Shown piece after piece: positions 53,833-59,050 of a DNA stretch of 64,000 nucleotides. Positions within the stretch are counted from its first letter, which is position 1. Every line of letters starts with the position of its first letter. The stretch lies in NCBI GenBank assembly GCA_022870745.1, contig CP085323.1, forward strand, positions 4,216,001 through 4,280,000, given 5' to 3'. Below the pieces are notes generated by a model. That model was given only the letters and a program-made list of their open reading frames with translations, was not told where the DNA came from and did not search any database. The translations under genes and the position numbers were made by a program. The stretch is from Silvibacterium acidisoli. Its GTDB lineage: Bacteria; Acidobacteriota; Terriglobia; Terriglobales; Acidobacteriaceae.

Positions 53833-54894
53833 CTAGGCAGGCAGTTCCTCCACCTTTGGGAAGTTGTGCTGTGCACGGCCTTCGTCGCCGTCATACTTCA
53901 CAGAGCTCTTGTATAACTCGAAGCGGCCATCGTTGAACTGCTTGCCCTGATCGCGCAGAGCCTGCATCTCCGCGGCAGACAGCGGCTTGAAGTTGCGCAG
54001 GATCTCCAGGTTCTGATCCAGGACAAGCATCGAATCCATGCCGCTGATTGTTGTTGTCACCGGAAGGCTCATCGCGTAGGTGAGAGCTTCTTGTGGCGTG
54101 AACGCGCCTTTCGCGACAAGCTCGCCCGATCCGCCCATGCTTTTCATTCCAAACACGGCCATATGTTTTTCGTTCGCGACGGGGAGAACGTTTTTTTCGA
54201 AGCTGCGGTAGTTCGGATCGAGAGCGTTCAGCGGCATCTGGATCGAATCGAAATCGTAACCGTTGTGAAGCATCTTCAGGTGGATGTCCGGATGCTTGTG
54301 GCCGGTGAATCCGACAAAGCGAACCTTGCCTTGCTGCCTGGCTTTAGTCAATGCCTCGAGCACGCCGTCCGGAGCATAGATAAGGTCTGGGTCGGTGTAG
54401 TAGACGACCTCGTGCACCTGCCAGAAGTCTAGGTGATCGGTCTGCAGCCGGGTCAGCGATTCTTCAAGCATGCGCATGGCCACGTCCTTATTGCGACCAT
54501 GTGTGCAGACCTTCGTCATCAGCACAACTTGATCGCGCTTGCCCTTGAGCGCTGTGCCCATCTTCTCTTCACTCAATCCCTTGTGATATTCCCAGGCATT
54601 GTCGAAGAAATTGATACCGTGATCGATCGCTTTTGCGATCATGTTGTTGATCTCGTCTTGATCGCCGACCGTGCCGATGTGATAGCCTCCGACACCGAGG
54701 ATCGAGCACTCAAGTCCTGTCTTGCCCATCTGCCGCTTCGGCGCGGTGAACGTAGCCGCGCTTGCAGAGGATTTCTCAGAGTGGGCATTCGAAGCTTTCT
54801 CTGCTGGCATCACTGCTGTTACCCCCGTCAATGCTGCGCTTTTCAAAAAACCTCGACGCGTCAGCTCCGGACCGTTTTGCGGATCGTTATGCAT
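53833..54894 (-). CDS. Tat-exported aldo/keto reductase
   Basis: A 353-residue protein starting MHNDPQNGPELTRRGFLKSAALTG, with a twin-arginine signal, so it acts outside the cytoplasm. The AKR barrel follows: IGTVGDQDEI, then GINFFDNAWEYHKGLSEE with catalytic Asp and Tyr, KVCTHGRNK with the catalytic-lysine strand, and VGFTGHKHPDIH. The C-terminal end is acidic. GAGG lies upstream of the ATG at 54894. A second AKR gene ends 11 bp upstream on the same strand; the two are clearly paralogous and form an operon. The substrate is unknown. Confidence 0.88.
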   Translation of the reverse strand: MHNDPQNGPELTRRGFLKSAALTGVTAVMPAEKASNAHSEKSSASAATFTAPKRQMGKTGLECSILGVGGYHIGTVGDQDEINNMIAKAIDHGINFFDNAWEYHKGLSEEKMGTALKGKRDQVVLMTKVCTHGRNKDVAMRMLEESLTRLQTDHLDFWQVHEVVYYTDPDLIYAPDGVLEALTKARQQGKVRFVGFTGHKHPDIHLKMLHNGYDFDSIQMPLNALDPNYRSFEKNVLPVANEKHMAVFGMKSMGGSGELVAKGAFTPQEALTYAMSLPVTTTISGMDSMLVLDQNLEILRNFKPLSAAEMQALRDQGKQFNDGRFELYKSSVKYDGDEGRAQHNFPKVEELPA

Positions 54895-54905
54895 GAACCC
54901 CATCC

Positions 54906-55889
54906 TCAGCCTGATACCTGGGGCCATGCGCGGCCGGTGTTATCAGTTTCATGAATCATCTCCTTCACTTCAACCTGCATGGTGTCGAGAGGGAAGTCGT
55001 GCGCCAGCCGGGCCTCGGGGTTATCGAACTTAAGCGAGACCTTGTACATCTCGTATCGTCCGTCGCCTGCGTAATAGCGGCAGCGCTCGCGAAGCTTCTG
55101 CATCTCTTCCTGCGACATCGGAGTGAATTCCTGCGCGACTTTCAGATTCTGTTCCAGAATCATCGGCTCCTCCGCGCCACTGATCGTTGTGGCGACCGGA
55201 AGGCTCATCGCGTAACGCAATGCTTCCGTGGCTTTCAATACGCCCTGTTTCACAGCTTCTCCATGGCCATTGATCGGTTTCATGCCCAGCGGCGCGATGC
55301 CGCGCTGGTTCAACACCGGCAGCACCTTGGTCTCGAAGCTCGAGAATGAACCGGCATCGAAGGGATTGAGAGGCATCTGCACCGCATCGAAAGGAAATCC
55401 CGTGTTGAGCATGGCCATGTGTACATCCGGATCCTTGTGCCCCGTGAATCCGAAGAACCGAACCTTGCCCTGTTCCTTCGCCTTGTGCATCGCCTCGGCC
55501 GCGCCCCCAGCGCGAATGAAGAGATCGGGATCGTTCGGGAAGCCCATGCCATGCACCTGCCATAGATCGAGGTGGTCGGTCTGCAGGCGCTTGAGAGATT
55601 GTTCCAGCATCTGCATCGCCAGCGAACCATCGCGCCCGTGCGTGCAGAACTTAGTCATCAGGAAAACTTTGTCGCGCTTGCCTTGTAAGGCCGCCCCGAG
55701 CCACGACTCGCATTTTCCGCGATAGTATTCCCAGCAGTTGTCATAAAAAGTAATGCCGCCGTCGAGCGCTCGATGCACGATCTCGATGGCGGTCTTCTCA
55801 TCTTTCGCCGCGCCCAGGTGATGGCCGCCAAGACCAAGCGCTGAAATTTTTACGCCGGTCTTTCCAAAATCACGAAGAGGAATCGACAT
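54906..55889 (-). CDS. Cytoplasmic aldo/keto reductase, paralogue of the next gene
   Basis: A 327-residue AKR starting MSIPLRDFGKTGVKISALGLGG behind AAGGAGA (start 55889; the longer open frame reaches 56039). Catalytic elements are in ITFYDNCWEYYRGK, LMTKFCTHGRDG and FFGFTGHKDPDVH. It shares most core motifs with the Tat-exported AKR downstream but has no signal peptide, so the pair puts related activities on both sides of the membrane. The NADPH-binding C terminus is conserved. The function is not known beyond carbonyl/alcohol oxidoreduction. Confidence 0.9.
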   Translation of the reverse strand: MSIPLRDFGKTGVKISALGLGGHHLGAAKDEKTAIEIVHRALDGGITFYDNCWEYYRGKCESWLGAALQGKRDKVFLMTKFCTHGRDGSLAMQMLEQSLKRLQTDHLDLWQVHGMGFPNDPDLFIRAGGAAEAMHKAKEQGKVRFFGFTGHKDPDVHMAMLNTGFPFDAVQMPLNPFDAGSFSSFETKVLPVLNQRGIAPLGMKPINGHGEAVKQGVLKATEALRYAMSLPVATTISGAEEPMILEQNLKVAQEFTPMSQEEMQKLRERCRYYAGDGRYEMYKVSLKFDNPEARLAHDFPLDTMQVEVKEMIHETDNTGRAWPQVSG

Positions 55890-55971
55890 GGATCTCCTTG
55901 AGCTATCCAGGAGGTATGACGTCGATTCCTCTTTGGTGGTTGGAAGTGTCGCTTGAGCAACAATACGGCGG

Positions 55972-56673
55972 TTATGCCAGGTCGAAGACCAGCACCTCGC
56001 TCTTTGATCCATTTGTCGCAATCTCGAGCACGTGTTCATTGCTCACTGCCGCCGCGTCGCCAGTCTGCAGCTGCTGGCCGTTCACGGCAACATCGCCTTC
56101 GACGACATGCAGCCATACGTGCCGGCTTTCATCAACTGCGTAGTCCAGCTTTGTTGCAGGATCCAGCACCGCGACCGAGACCTTTGCATCCTGGTTGATC
56201 GTGGCGGCTCCCGCTACCGGCGTGGGCGATGCGAGCACCTTGAAGCGATTCTGCTTTTCGCTCTCGTCGAACTTCAACTGCTCGTACGAAGGCTTGATGC
56301 CACGCTGCTTCGGCTCAATCCAGATCTGAAAGAAGTGCACCGGATCTGTCTGCGAACCGTTGTACTCGCTGTGAAAGACGCCTGTTCCCGCGGACATCTT
56401 CTGGATCTCGTTGGGTCCAAGCACTTCTTCCTGGCCCATACTGTCCTTGTGCGCGAGCTTGCCGCTGCGGACATAGCTGAGAATCTCCATGTCCTGGTGC
56501 GGATGCGCGCCGAAGCCGCGTCCCGGCGCGACGCGATCTTCATTGATCACCCGCAACGAACGAAAGCCCATGTGCTTCGGATCGTAGTAATTAGCGAAAG
56601 AAAAGGTGTGGTGCGAATCCAGCCATCCGTGGTCTGCGTGGCCTCTCTCGTTGTTTCTGCGTACGGTAATCAT
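55972..56673 (-). CDS. Pirin-family protein (YhhW/quercetin 2,3-dioxygenase-like)
   Basis: A 233-residue bicupin. The N-terminal RGHADHGWLDSHHTFSFANY is the pirin signature; metal ligands H57, H59 (GAHPHQDME), H101 and E103 (FHSEYN) are all present, so it can bind iron. YhhW relatives oxidise quercetin in vitro; the in vivo role is often a redox or stress link. Its start overlaps the stop of the MarR gene (ATGA), with AAGGAAAAG upstream. The operon is controlled by the MarR regulator through the palindrome at 57166. Confidence 0.93.
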   Translation of the reverse strand: MITVRRNNERGHADHGWLDSHHTFSFANYYDPKHMGFRSLRVINEDRVAPGRGFGAHPHQDMEILSYVRSGKLAHKDSMGQEEVLGPNEIQKMSAGTGVFHSEYNGSQTDPVHFFQIWIEPKQRGIKPSYEQLKFDESEKQNRFKVLASPTPVAGAATINQDAKVSVAVLDPATKLDYAVDESRHVWLHVVEGDVAVNGQQLQTGDAAAVSNEHVLEIATNGSKSEVLVFDLA

Positions 56674-57225: not shown

Positions 57226-57603
57226 TTAGCAGGCGGAGTGGGGATTAGGGAAGGTGTCGACGTTGTCGGCGTCGTCACGGTCGATGCAGGCGAAATCCTT
57301 TTCGATCACCACTTCCAGTGGGCCACGCGGGCCAATCTCTATGGAAGAGTAGATGCCCACCTGGGAGCCGGCCGCCCAGATGCGGATCTCCTCGGCAGGC
57401 ACGAGAACGGCCACTTCGGTTCCCTTGTGCTGCACGGTAACCGTGGTGAGCGCTGCGTCGGCGCTGAGGCTGTAGGTGAGCGAGGCATTCCCGGCAGGGG
57501 CAAAAAAGATTGTCTCTGACAGCGGATCGCCTGCTGCGAGCCGATCAACTTCGGTACGCAGCACGCGCAGCCGCATGGAGTTGCCTTTGATACGAAGCTT
57601 CAA
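57226..57603 (-). CDS. DUF7009 family protein
   Basis: A 125-residue protein starting MKLRIKGNSMRLRVLRTEVDRLA, the N-terminal signature of DUF7009, a small uncharacterised family common in Acidobacteriota. The rest is predicted beta-rich (TVTVQHKGTEVAVLVP, PLEVVIEKDFACIDR) with no signal peptide. It begins 10 bp after the YceH-FdhD fusion stop, so it is the last gene of the ispG operon. The function is unknown; linkage to FdhD hints at a role near formate dehydrogenase or metal/sulfur cofactor metabolism (weak inference). Confidence 0.88.
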   Translation of the reverse strand: MKLRIKGNSMRLRVLRTEVDRLAAGDPLSETIFFAPAGNASLTYSLSADAALTTVTVQHKGTEVAVLVPAEEIRIWAAGSQVGIYSSIEIGPRGPLEVVIEKDFACIDRDDADNVDTFPNPHSAC

Positions 57604-57613
57604 GTTATCTCCT

Positions 57614-59050
57614 CTACCGGCTTTGTAGCGAGCCCGTTAGATGCGCGGCCCCATGATAGACGTTGAAGTGATCGTCGCGCAGAAAGCCTACGAGGATCAC
57701 GTCGAACTCCTTCGCGACCTGCACCGCAAGGCTGGAGGGAGCGCCGACAGCAGCGACCATCGGGATTCCCGCCATCACGGCCTTCTGCAACAGCTCGAAG
57801 CTTGCGCGTCCCGAAAGCATCAACAGGCGATCCCGCAGCGGCGTGCGATCGGCGAGGAATTCCTGCCCGAGGAGCTTGTCCACCGCGTTATGGCGGCCCA
57901 CATCTTCACGAATCGCATGGAGTCTGCCTTCGCCGTCGAAGAGTCCAGCAGCGTGCAGCCCTCCGGTGCGACCGAATACGTTTTGCCCGGCGCGCAACCT
58001 TACAGGCAGCTTGTAGAGAATCGCCGGATCGAAGGTGAAGTCATTGGTGCGCCGCGGCGGGCAGACGGTTCGCAATGCAAGCAGTGAAGCTTTGCCGCAG
58101 ATGCCGCAGCTTGATGTCGTGTAGAAGTTGCGTTCGAGCGTACCAAGGCTGACTTTTACATCGGCAGCCAGTTCCACGCGCACGATGTTGCGGTGCGGCC
58201 GATAGGGAAGCGCAGCGTCTGCCATGTCCTGATCCGGCTCAACGGGACCTGCAATGTAACGAACGTCTTCGATCTCTCCTGCTTCCCGCACTACGCCTTC
58301 GGTCATCAGGAATCCGGCGGCCAGGTCGAAATCATGACCTGGAGTCCGCATGGTCACCGAGATTGACTTAACCTTGCGTTCCTCAGCGGGGCCGTAAACA
58401 AGTTGGATCTCAAGCGGCTCTTCGACGGCCAGCGTGTCTTCTGCAGATTGCGGATGCAGGCCGGCAAAGCGATCGATCGAAGTGGTCAGCACCGCACCGC
58501 TCTCGATCAGCTCACGCAAGGCCTCGGCTGAGGGTTCGCTTGCGGCAGCATTCTCCTGATCGGAGGTGAAGAGGTGGGTATAGCGTGCTTCGCGCGTTCC
58601 CGCCTGCTGCGGCAGCACCTTTGCCAGCGCCGGATTGCGCTGCATGAGCTTGCGCAGGGTTGAAAGCACATCTTCCAGCTCGGCAAAGGAGTGCATGCGC
58701 TCGCTGCGTCCACGCAGCTCGCCCGGAGTCTGCGGCCCGCGCAGCAGCAGCGTACAGATGAGCGCGCCCTCTCCGCGCGTGAAGTTGAACATCTCCTGCA
58801 TGTGGTGTTCGAACTTTGCCACGCGGCCGTCAGCGCGAGCCTTGCCCGCGAGTTTCTTTTGCTCAAGGCCACTGAGTGCCGAGCGCACCTCGTCTTCGCT
58901 GAGCGCCATCACCGGCTCGCGGTTGTTCTTCTGGTTACAGGCGTTGACGAGGGCGTTCAGCGAAAGAGGGTAATACTCCGGCGTCGTGCTCTCTTTCTCC
59001 ATAAGAGAACCGAGCACGCGCGCTTCGACGGCAGTCAGAGCGAGATCCAA
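57614..59050 (-). CDS. Single-ORF fusion of YceH (DUF480) and FdhD sulfurtransferase domains
   Basis: A 478-residue protein. Residues 1-163 are a YceH/DUF480 domain (LTAVEARVLGSLMEKESTTPE, NACNQKNNREPV, TLLLRGPQTPGELRGRSERM), two winged-helix-like repeats of unknown function. Residues about 190-475 are FdhD, the sulfurtransferase that passes sulfur from IscS to the bis-MGD cofactor of formate dehydrogenase. Its CxxC active site is C315/C318 in SSCGICGKAS, and REDVGRHNAVDKLLG is conserved. The acidic linker (164-189) replaces the coiled-coil tail of stand-alone YceH. There is no stop, frameshift or internal RBS at the junction. It is 15 bp after ispG and 10 bp before the DUF7009 gene. Confidence 0.93.
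   Translation of the reverse strand: MDLALTAVEARVLGSLMEKESTTPEYYPLSLNALVNACNQKNNREPVMALSEDEVRSALSGLEQKKLAGKARADGRVAKFEHHMQEMFNFTRGEGALICTLLLRGPQTPGELRGRSERMHSFAELEDVLSTLRKLMQRNPALAKVLPQQAGTREARYTHLFTSDQENAAASEPSAEALRELIESGAVLTTSIDRFAGLHPQSAEDTLAVEEPLEIQLVYGPAEERKVKSISVTMRTPGHDFDLAAGFLMTEGVVREAGEIEDVRYIAGPVEPDQDMADAALPYRPHRNIVRVELAADVKVSLGTLERNFYTTSSCGICGKASLLALRTVCPPRRTNDFTFDPAILYKLPVRLRAGQNVFGRTGGLHAAGLFDGEGRLHAIREDVGRHNAVDKLLGQEFLADRTPLRDRLLMLSGRASFELLQKAVMAGIPMVAAVGAPSSLAVQVAKEFDVILVGFLRDDHFNVYHGAAHLTGSLQSR

Follow-up and report, generated by a model that had tools for sequence, protein, structure and literature searches.

Silvibacterium acidisoli encodes YceH (DUF480) and FdhD as one protein. 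The yceH-fdhD fusion, an open reading frame of 478 aa with a TTG start, occupies 57614..59050 on the minus strand of the window (the whole 64,000-nucleotide stretch analyzed here), and the features of this locus given below lie on the same strand. Within the assembly, the fusion is genuine. We assign a probability of about 0.6 to its being a lineage-specific fusion in which the FdhD half works normally and the YceH half is unrelated to that work or of little role.

A preliminary description of this DNA had reported an uninterrupted frame of 478 codons that joins YceH to FdhD, and the ORF call, Pfam and NCBIfam all bear this out. There are zero internal stops over the 478 codons. The Pfam DUF480 model (PF04337) matched residues 5-151 with 198.5 bits (cut-off 25), covering profile positions 1-148 of 149, and FdhD-NarQ (PF02634) matched residues 228-470 with 204.4 bits (cut-off 27.2). 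The NCBIfam FdhD models NF001943 (residues 190-470; 287.4 vs. a cut-off of 269) and TIGR00129 (residues 288-469; 141.6 vs. 140.9, a narrow pass) agreed. From these hits and from fold matches, we place the FdhD part at residues 190-478 (57617..58483). Its CxxC motif (Cys315 and Cys318; 58097..58108) was also correctly given in the preliminary description and falls within a loop that AlphaFold2 models with low confidence (residues 311-319). The host genome, a single contig of 5,359,900 bases with an estimated completeness of 99.99%, contains one DUF480 match and one FdhD match, both within the fusion ORF. A gap of 15 bp separates the fusion from ispG on its upstream side, and a DUF7009 gene (identity by Pfam) begins after a gap of 10 bp on its downstream side, exactly the gaps first reported. 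Elsewhere in the window, at 53833-56039, two adjacent genes that are about 50% identical look by eye like aldo/keto reductases, with pirin-like and MarR-like genes beside them.

The claim that the N-terminal half carries YceH holds for the conserved core and fails for YceH as a whole, since the C-terminal tail is absent. Stand-alone YceH proteins are 209-255 aa long in 117/117 complete rows (query-offset lengths; duplicates included, own locus excluded; the full set comprised 124 rows, one of them incomplete). In the rows that we inspected (22 + 16), the core, which ends in RYxHLLSG in most of them, is followed by a variable stretch and then by a tail with L-E-x-E-V-x-x-L-R patterns that looks by eye like a coiled coil. 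The fusion retains the core (residues 1-165; 58556..59050, from the Pfam hit, the relatives' tails and the fold match), lacks a tail of this type and has FdhD in its place; it scored 163.3 bits against the NCBIfam YceH equivalog NF008413, below the cut-off of 321, in a test run on the fusion only. In E. coli YceH (5vyv), 215 residues are present in the sequence and 173 in the structure library, so the tail was probably disordered in that crystal.

On the other side of the junction, stand-alone FdhD begins with a short variable N-tail that precedes an EEPLE-like block (15 relatives), and the fusion has the YceH domain in place of this tail. Comparing where the YceH core ends with the FdhD N-tails puts the join between residue 165 and about residue 190, in a region that is variable in both families. 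When we scanned the window for leftovers of the YceH tail, the matches listed near the gene were at chance level, and the best of them (E 0.067) was simply where the YceH core ends. The motif DRFAGL of the fusion, which sits under the tail pattern in one alignment, was considered as YceH tail and rejected: one FdhD relative (L133) has DRFDGL and another (L122) NRFIG at the same place, so we read it as FdhD N-tail.

AlphaFold2 predicted a confident YceH core and a confident FdhD core (pTM 0.59) from a shallow alignment of 22 rows (the fusion, 16 YceH and 5 FdhD sequences); an earlier alignment of 55 fusion, YceH and FdhD rows was dropped because YceH rows had been misplaced onto the FdhD half. 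Between the cores, pLDDT fell below 50 over residues 166-175, 178-182 and 184-206. With the linker mostly below 50 and a pTM of 0.59, no fixed arrangement of the domains is supported. The model thus shows two confident domains on a predicted disordered tether of about 40 residues (residues 166-206; 58433..58555), the end of which is FdhD N-tail. The YceH half, in which DUF480 is nearly end to end, has the same fold as the YceH/DUF480/UPF0502 structures 5VYV, 5U8J and 3BZ6 (TM-scores on the targets 0.87-0.90), a core that we take to be winged-helix-like; the PDB titles of 5vyv and 5u8j mention membrane biogenesis. The FdhD half shares its fold and its CxxC with the E. coli (4PDE; Foldseek E 1.5e-15, TMt 0.74) and D. 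psychrophila (2PW9) proteins.

A likely client exists for the FdhD half. According to one published account (PMC10609526), FdhD receives sulfur from IscS, a cysteine desulfurase, passes it to the molybdenum cofactor and delivers the cofactor to formate dehydrogenase. Two cysteines of the E. coli protein lie in a loop, and sulfur transfer requires one of them, Cys121. In the 4pde match, residues 290-468 of the fusion pair with 96-272, an offset by which C315 would correspond to Cys121. The host genome encodes a formate dehydrogenase alpha subunit above the equivalog cut-off (TIGR01591; 816.1 bits vs. 666.25; gene at G000:C1:4177144); its gene lies beyond the window, some 95 kb away from the fusion.

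How widespread is the fusion? We searched 9 genus, 398 family and 396 phylum genomes (overlapping sets, own genome included) with the full protein, and the sole listed match over residues 1-478 was in the genome of origin. At most four candidates per genome were scored in the family and phylum searches, and matches were listed down to about 228 and 163 bits, respectively, so that a distant fusion could be missed or appear as one half. Frames of more than 400 aa around YceH in three genomes were considered as further fusions and found unsupported: FdhD is on another contig in one (G191) and gave no match in the other two (G131 and G175), the ORF chosen in G175 being 221 aa. No second YceH-FdhD fusion was found in plasmid records. 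The preliminary description knew of no account of this architecture; our literature search on both names likewise found no description of the fusion, and returned a B. subtilis transcription paper that names both. The closest named genomes by YceH are Acidicapsa and Paracidobacterium.

Among 200 family genomes, some of them incomplete and with identical proteins dropped, a DUF480 profile found YceH in 107 and the FdhD half as query found FdhD in 40, with both in 29; distant FdhDs may be missed in these counts because that search used a single protein. In 28 of the 29 two-gene genomes, yceH and fdhD are unlinked, either on different contigs (24) or 122-2663 kb apart on one contig (4). Each family also occurs alone: 11/40 genomes with FdhD have no YceH, and 78/107 with YceH have no FdhD. 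YceH is nonetheless present in 29/40 FdhD genomes vs. 78/160 others (Fisher p 0.008, ignoring kinship). Of 14 control genomes outside the phylum, 8 have FdhD, and E. coli alone has YceH.

We infer the route of joining, the production of the fused protein and the independence of its halves as follows. The fdhD-DUF7009 pair would have entered, or been moved to, the 3' end of yceH; the frames would have merged within the variable region that separates the YceH core from the FdhD core, with loss of the YceH tail; and the product would be a flexibly tethered two-domain protein. Its FdhD half would take sulfur via the CxxC and give the sulfurated molybdenum cofactor to the host formate dehydrogenase, and its YceH half would keep its own unrelated role, or little role. 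Two points weigh against this lineage-specific fusion of independent halves: YceH and FdhD co-occur above chance, and the YceH core is open and mostly intact, which argues against an old useless extension, since such an extension would not be expected to stay open.

The proposed origin draws on the neighbors. The DUF7009 gene (57226..57603; 125 aa, TTG start, strong Shine-Dalgarno sequence) is a conserved downstream neighbor of fdhD. FdhD and DUF7009 are both present in 14/200 family genomes (Fisher p 3e-7, ignoring kinship), and in 11 of the 14, the genome of origin included, DUF7009 follows within 50 bp on the same strand; in the remaining three it is divergent at a distance of 210 bp, sits 1.2 kb upstream, or is separated from fdhD by 13 kb. 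Six family genomes have DUF7009 and no FdhD match. In the fdhD surroundings compared in the genus relatives G117, G189 and G066, fdhD and the DUF7009 gene beside it are the only genes in common, the other shared matches being frames that overlap fdhD. Seventeen aligned DUF7009 members keep EKDFxC and nearly always have a Cys near the C-terminus. The preliminary description had proposed both neighbors as further partners; DUF7009 is supported as one by the conserved gene pair, and ispG is not, as its adjacency is not conserved. Judged from gene order, DUF7009 is a better-supported partner of FdhD than YceH, and a candidate new formate dehydrogenase maturation factor.

Downstream of ispG, fdhD and DUF7009 were not found in four genus relatives with at least 4.7 kb of sequence there, nor were yceH, fdhD and DUF7009 in at least 5 kb in G117, G066 and G189; in G141, G200 and G201 the sequence beyond ispG was too short to compare neighbors. 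The only one of the four relatives with yceH in this region is G159, where the gene is on the strand of ispG and 6 kb further downstream. The G159 YceH matches that of the window at 68% (52-55% for three other genus relatives), and FdhD was not found in the G159 genome. This arrangement is a plausible ancestral landing site for fdhD-DUF7009. We also observed two distant kinds of YceH within the genus. The proteins of G175, G066 and G117 (L118, L119 and L120) form a long-branched clade, and that of G159 (L117) shares a larger clade with the window YceH, a pattern suggestive of replacement or transfer.

The two halves differ in how closely they follow their families. Of the columns that 40 relatives conserve at the 95% level, the FdhD half keeps 80/80 (a wide test run without rows L197, L198, L199, L200 and L202), and against its 23 closest relatives it keeps 122/124 conserved columns; both changes are D to E, and 3/23 relatives match or exceed this count. 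In the YceH half, 4/63 columns conserved at the 95% level are changed, which 4/99 relatives match or exceed; three of the four lie beyond residue 178, the cut-point of the fusion in this test, leaving R148Q as the only core change. Against 91 closer rows, 2/51 columns at the 98% level are changed (0/91 relatives do so), as are 9/90 at the 90% level (2/91 match or exceed), with part of these columns falling in the tail. In core-only trees, built without YceH rows below 58% and FdhD rows below 55% identity, the terminal branch of the YceH half is the second longest of 94 (0.309 vs. a median of 0.067), and that of the FdhD half ranks 8 of 25. The branch and the column changes of YceH would fit eased constraint, and would also fit sparse sampling near the host genome.

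In one rival reading, FdhD would be made freely from an internal start, and the YceH half would be a decaying passenger or a separate product. An internal start at the junction was a concern of the preliminary description, and a candidate does exist, an in-frame GTG at codon 187 (58490..58492). A free FdhD is possible, given that the anti-Shine-Dalgarno duplex at this codon is predicted at −4.0 kcal/mol vs. −3.3 kcal/mol at the TTG of the fusion. The product would be 292 aa long, within the 275-322 aa of FdhD relatives (starts chosen by script), and its N-tail would be roughly of the short length seen in L127 and L128. The long branch, the departures at conserved columns and the lost tail of the YceH half point the same way. 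However, only one of the four departures at 95%-conserved columns is in the core, the core is modeled as a confident YceH fold, and the long branch may reflect missing close relatives. We consider this reading unlikely.

A second reading couples the halves, with the YceH domain acting as adaptor or regulator alongside FdhD in formate dehydrogenase maturation. The fusion itself, the single copies of both families and the weak co-occurrence would all fit, and the phylum holds a precedent: a 1039-aa frame (L198:4989-8108) in which FdhD follows an FdhF/YdeP-type oxidoreductase (model 525 bits vs. a cut-off of 582), plausibly a client-chaperone fusion. Both FdhDs have an N-terminal fusion partner, but that of L198 is a likely FdhD client and makes immediate functional sense, which YceH does not. 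Standing against coupling are the separation of the genes in nearly all two-gene genomes, the frequent presence of either family alone, the controls, in which FdhD mostly occurs without YceH, and the lack of a confident arrangement of the domains in the shallow-alignment model. The preliminary description had treated the fusion as Rosetta-stone evidence; the fusion stands, and the functional link drawn from it is weak, with one genome, mostly unlinked genes and independent presence. We therefore regard coupling as improbable, and a more specific version of it, in which the YceH core is a module dedicated to partnering FdhD and links its sulfuration of the cofactor to another process, such as nucleic-acid binding or client recruitment, and in which the FdhD dimer replaces the YceH tail, as highly doubtful.

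L198 was the only clear fusion among six loci with long FdhD frames (L197-L202) that we compared out of a larger number listed, and none of the six matched YceH. Two other long frames end in FdhD, L197:5234-10525 (1763 aa) and L199:5270-8302 (1010 aa); they have no second Pfam domain and so may be shadow frames of GC-rich DNA rather than fusions.

Finally, an assembly or sequencing error that hid an indel or stop codon separating two genes is very unlikely: there is one assembly from one strain of the species and the linker contains stops in each of the two other frames, but a frameshift would end YceH near residue 180 with the tail still absent, no frame of the junction shows the tail, the roughly 25 codons between the cores are too few to hold it, and the genome assembled into one nearly complete contig. 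Because the tail is absent in all frames and the cores are so close, the rearrangement would be structural even with a missed linker stop. The preliminary description had paired such a single-base error with separate genes in close relatives; separate genes are indeed the rule, and the error was not shown.

As an apparently one-off joining, a lineage-specific fusion of YceH to FdhD says little about the function of YceH, for which our literature search under YceH or DUF480 found no functional study; to our knowledge, the family has no established function. It serves as a caution that a fusion seen a single time gives weak evidence of function when its genes are elsewhere unlinked and occur independently of each other, and it is worth an annotation note. 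As a lead to a new formate dehydrogenase maturation factor, the conserved pair of fdhD and DUF7009 is more promising. If the fusion were functional, it would offer the first testable role for YceH, a family with three solved relatives in the PDB, and if the YceH core were in truth a dedicated partner module of FdhD, YceH would gain its first functional handle.
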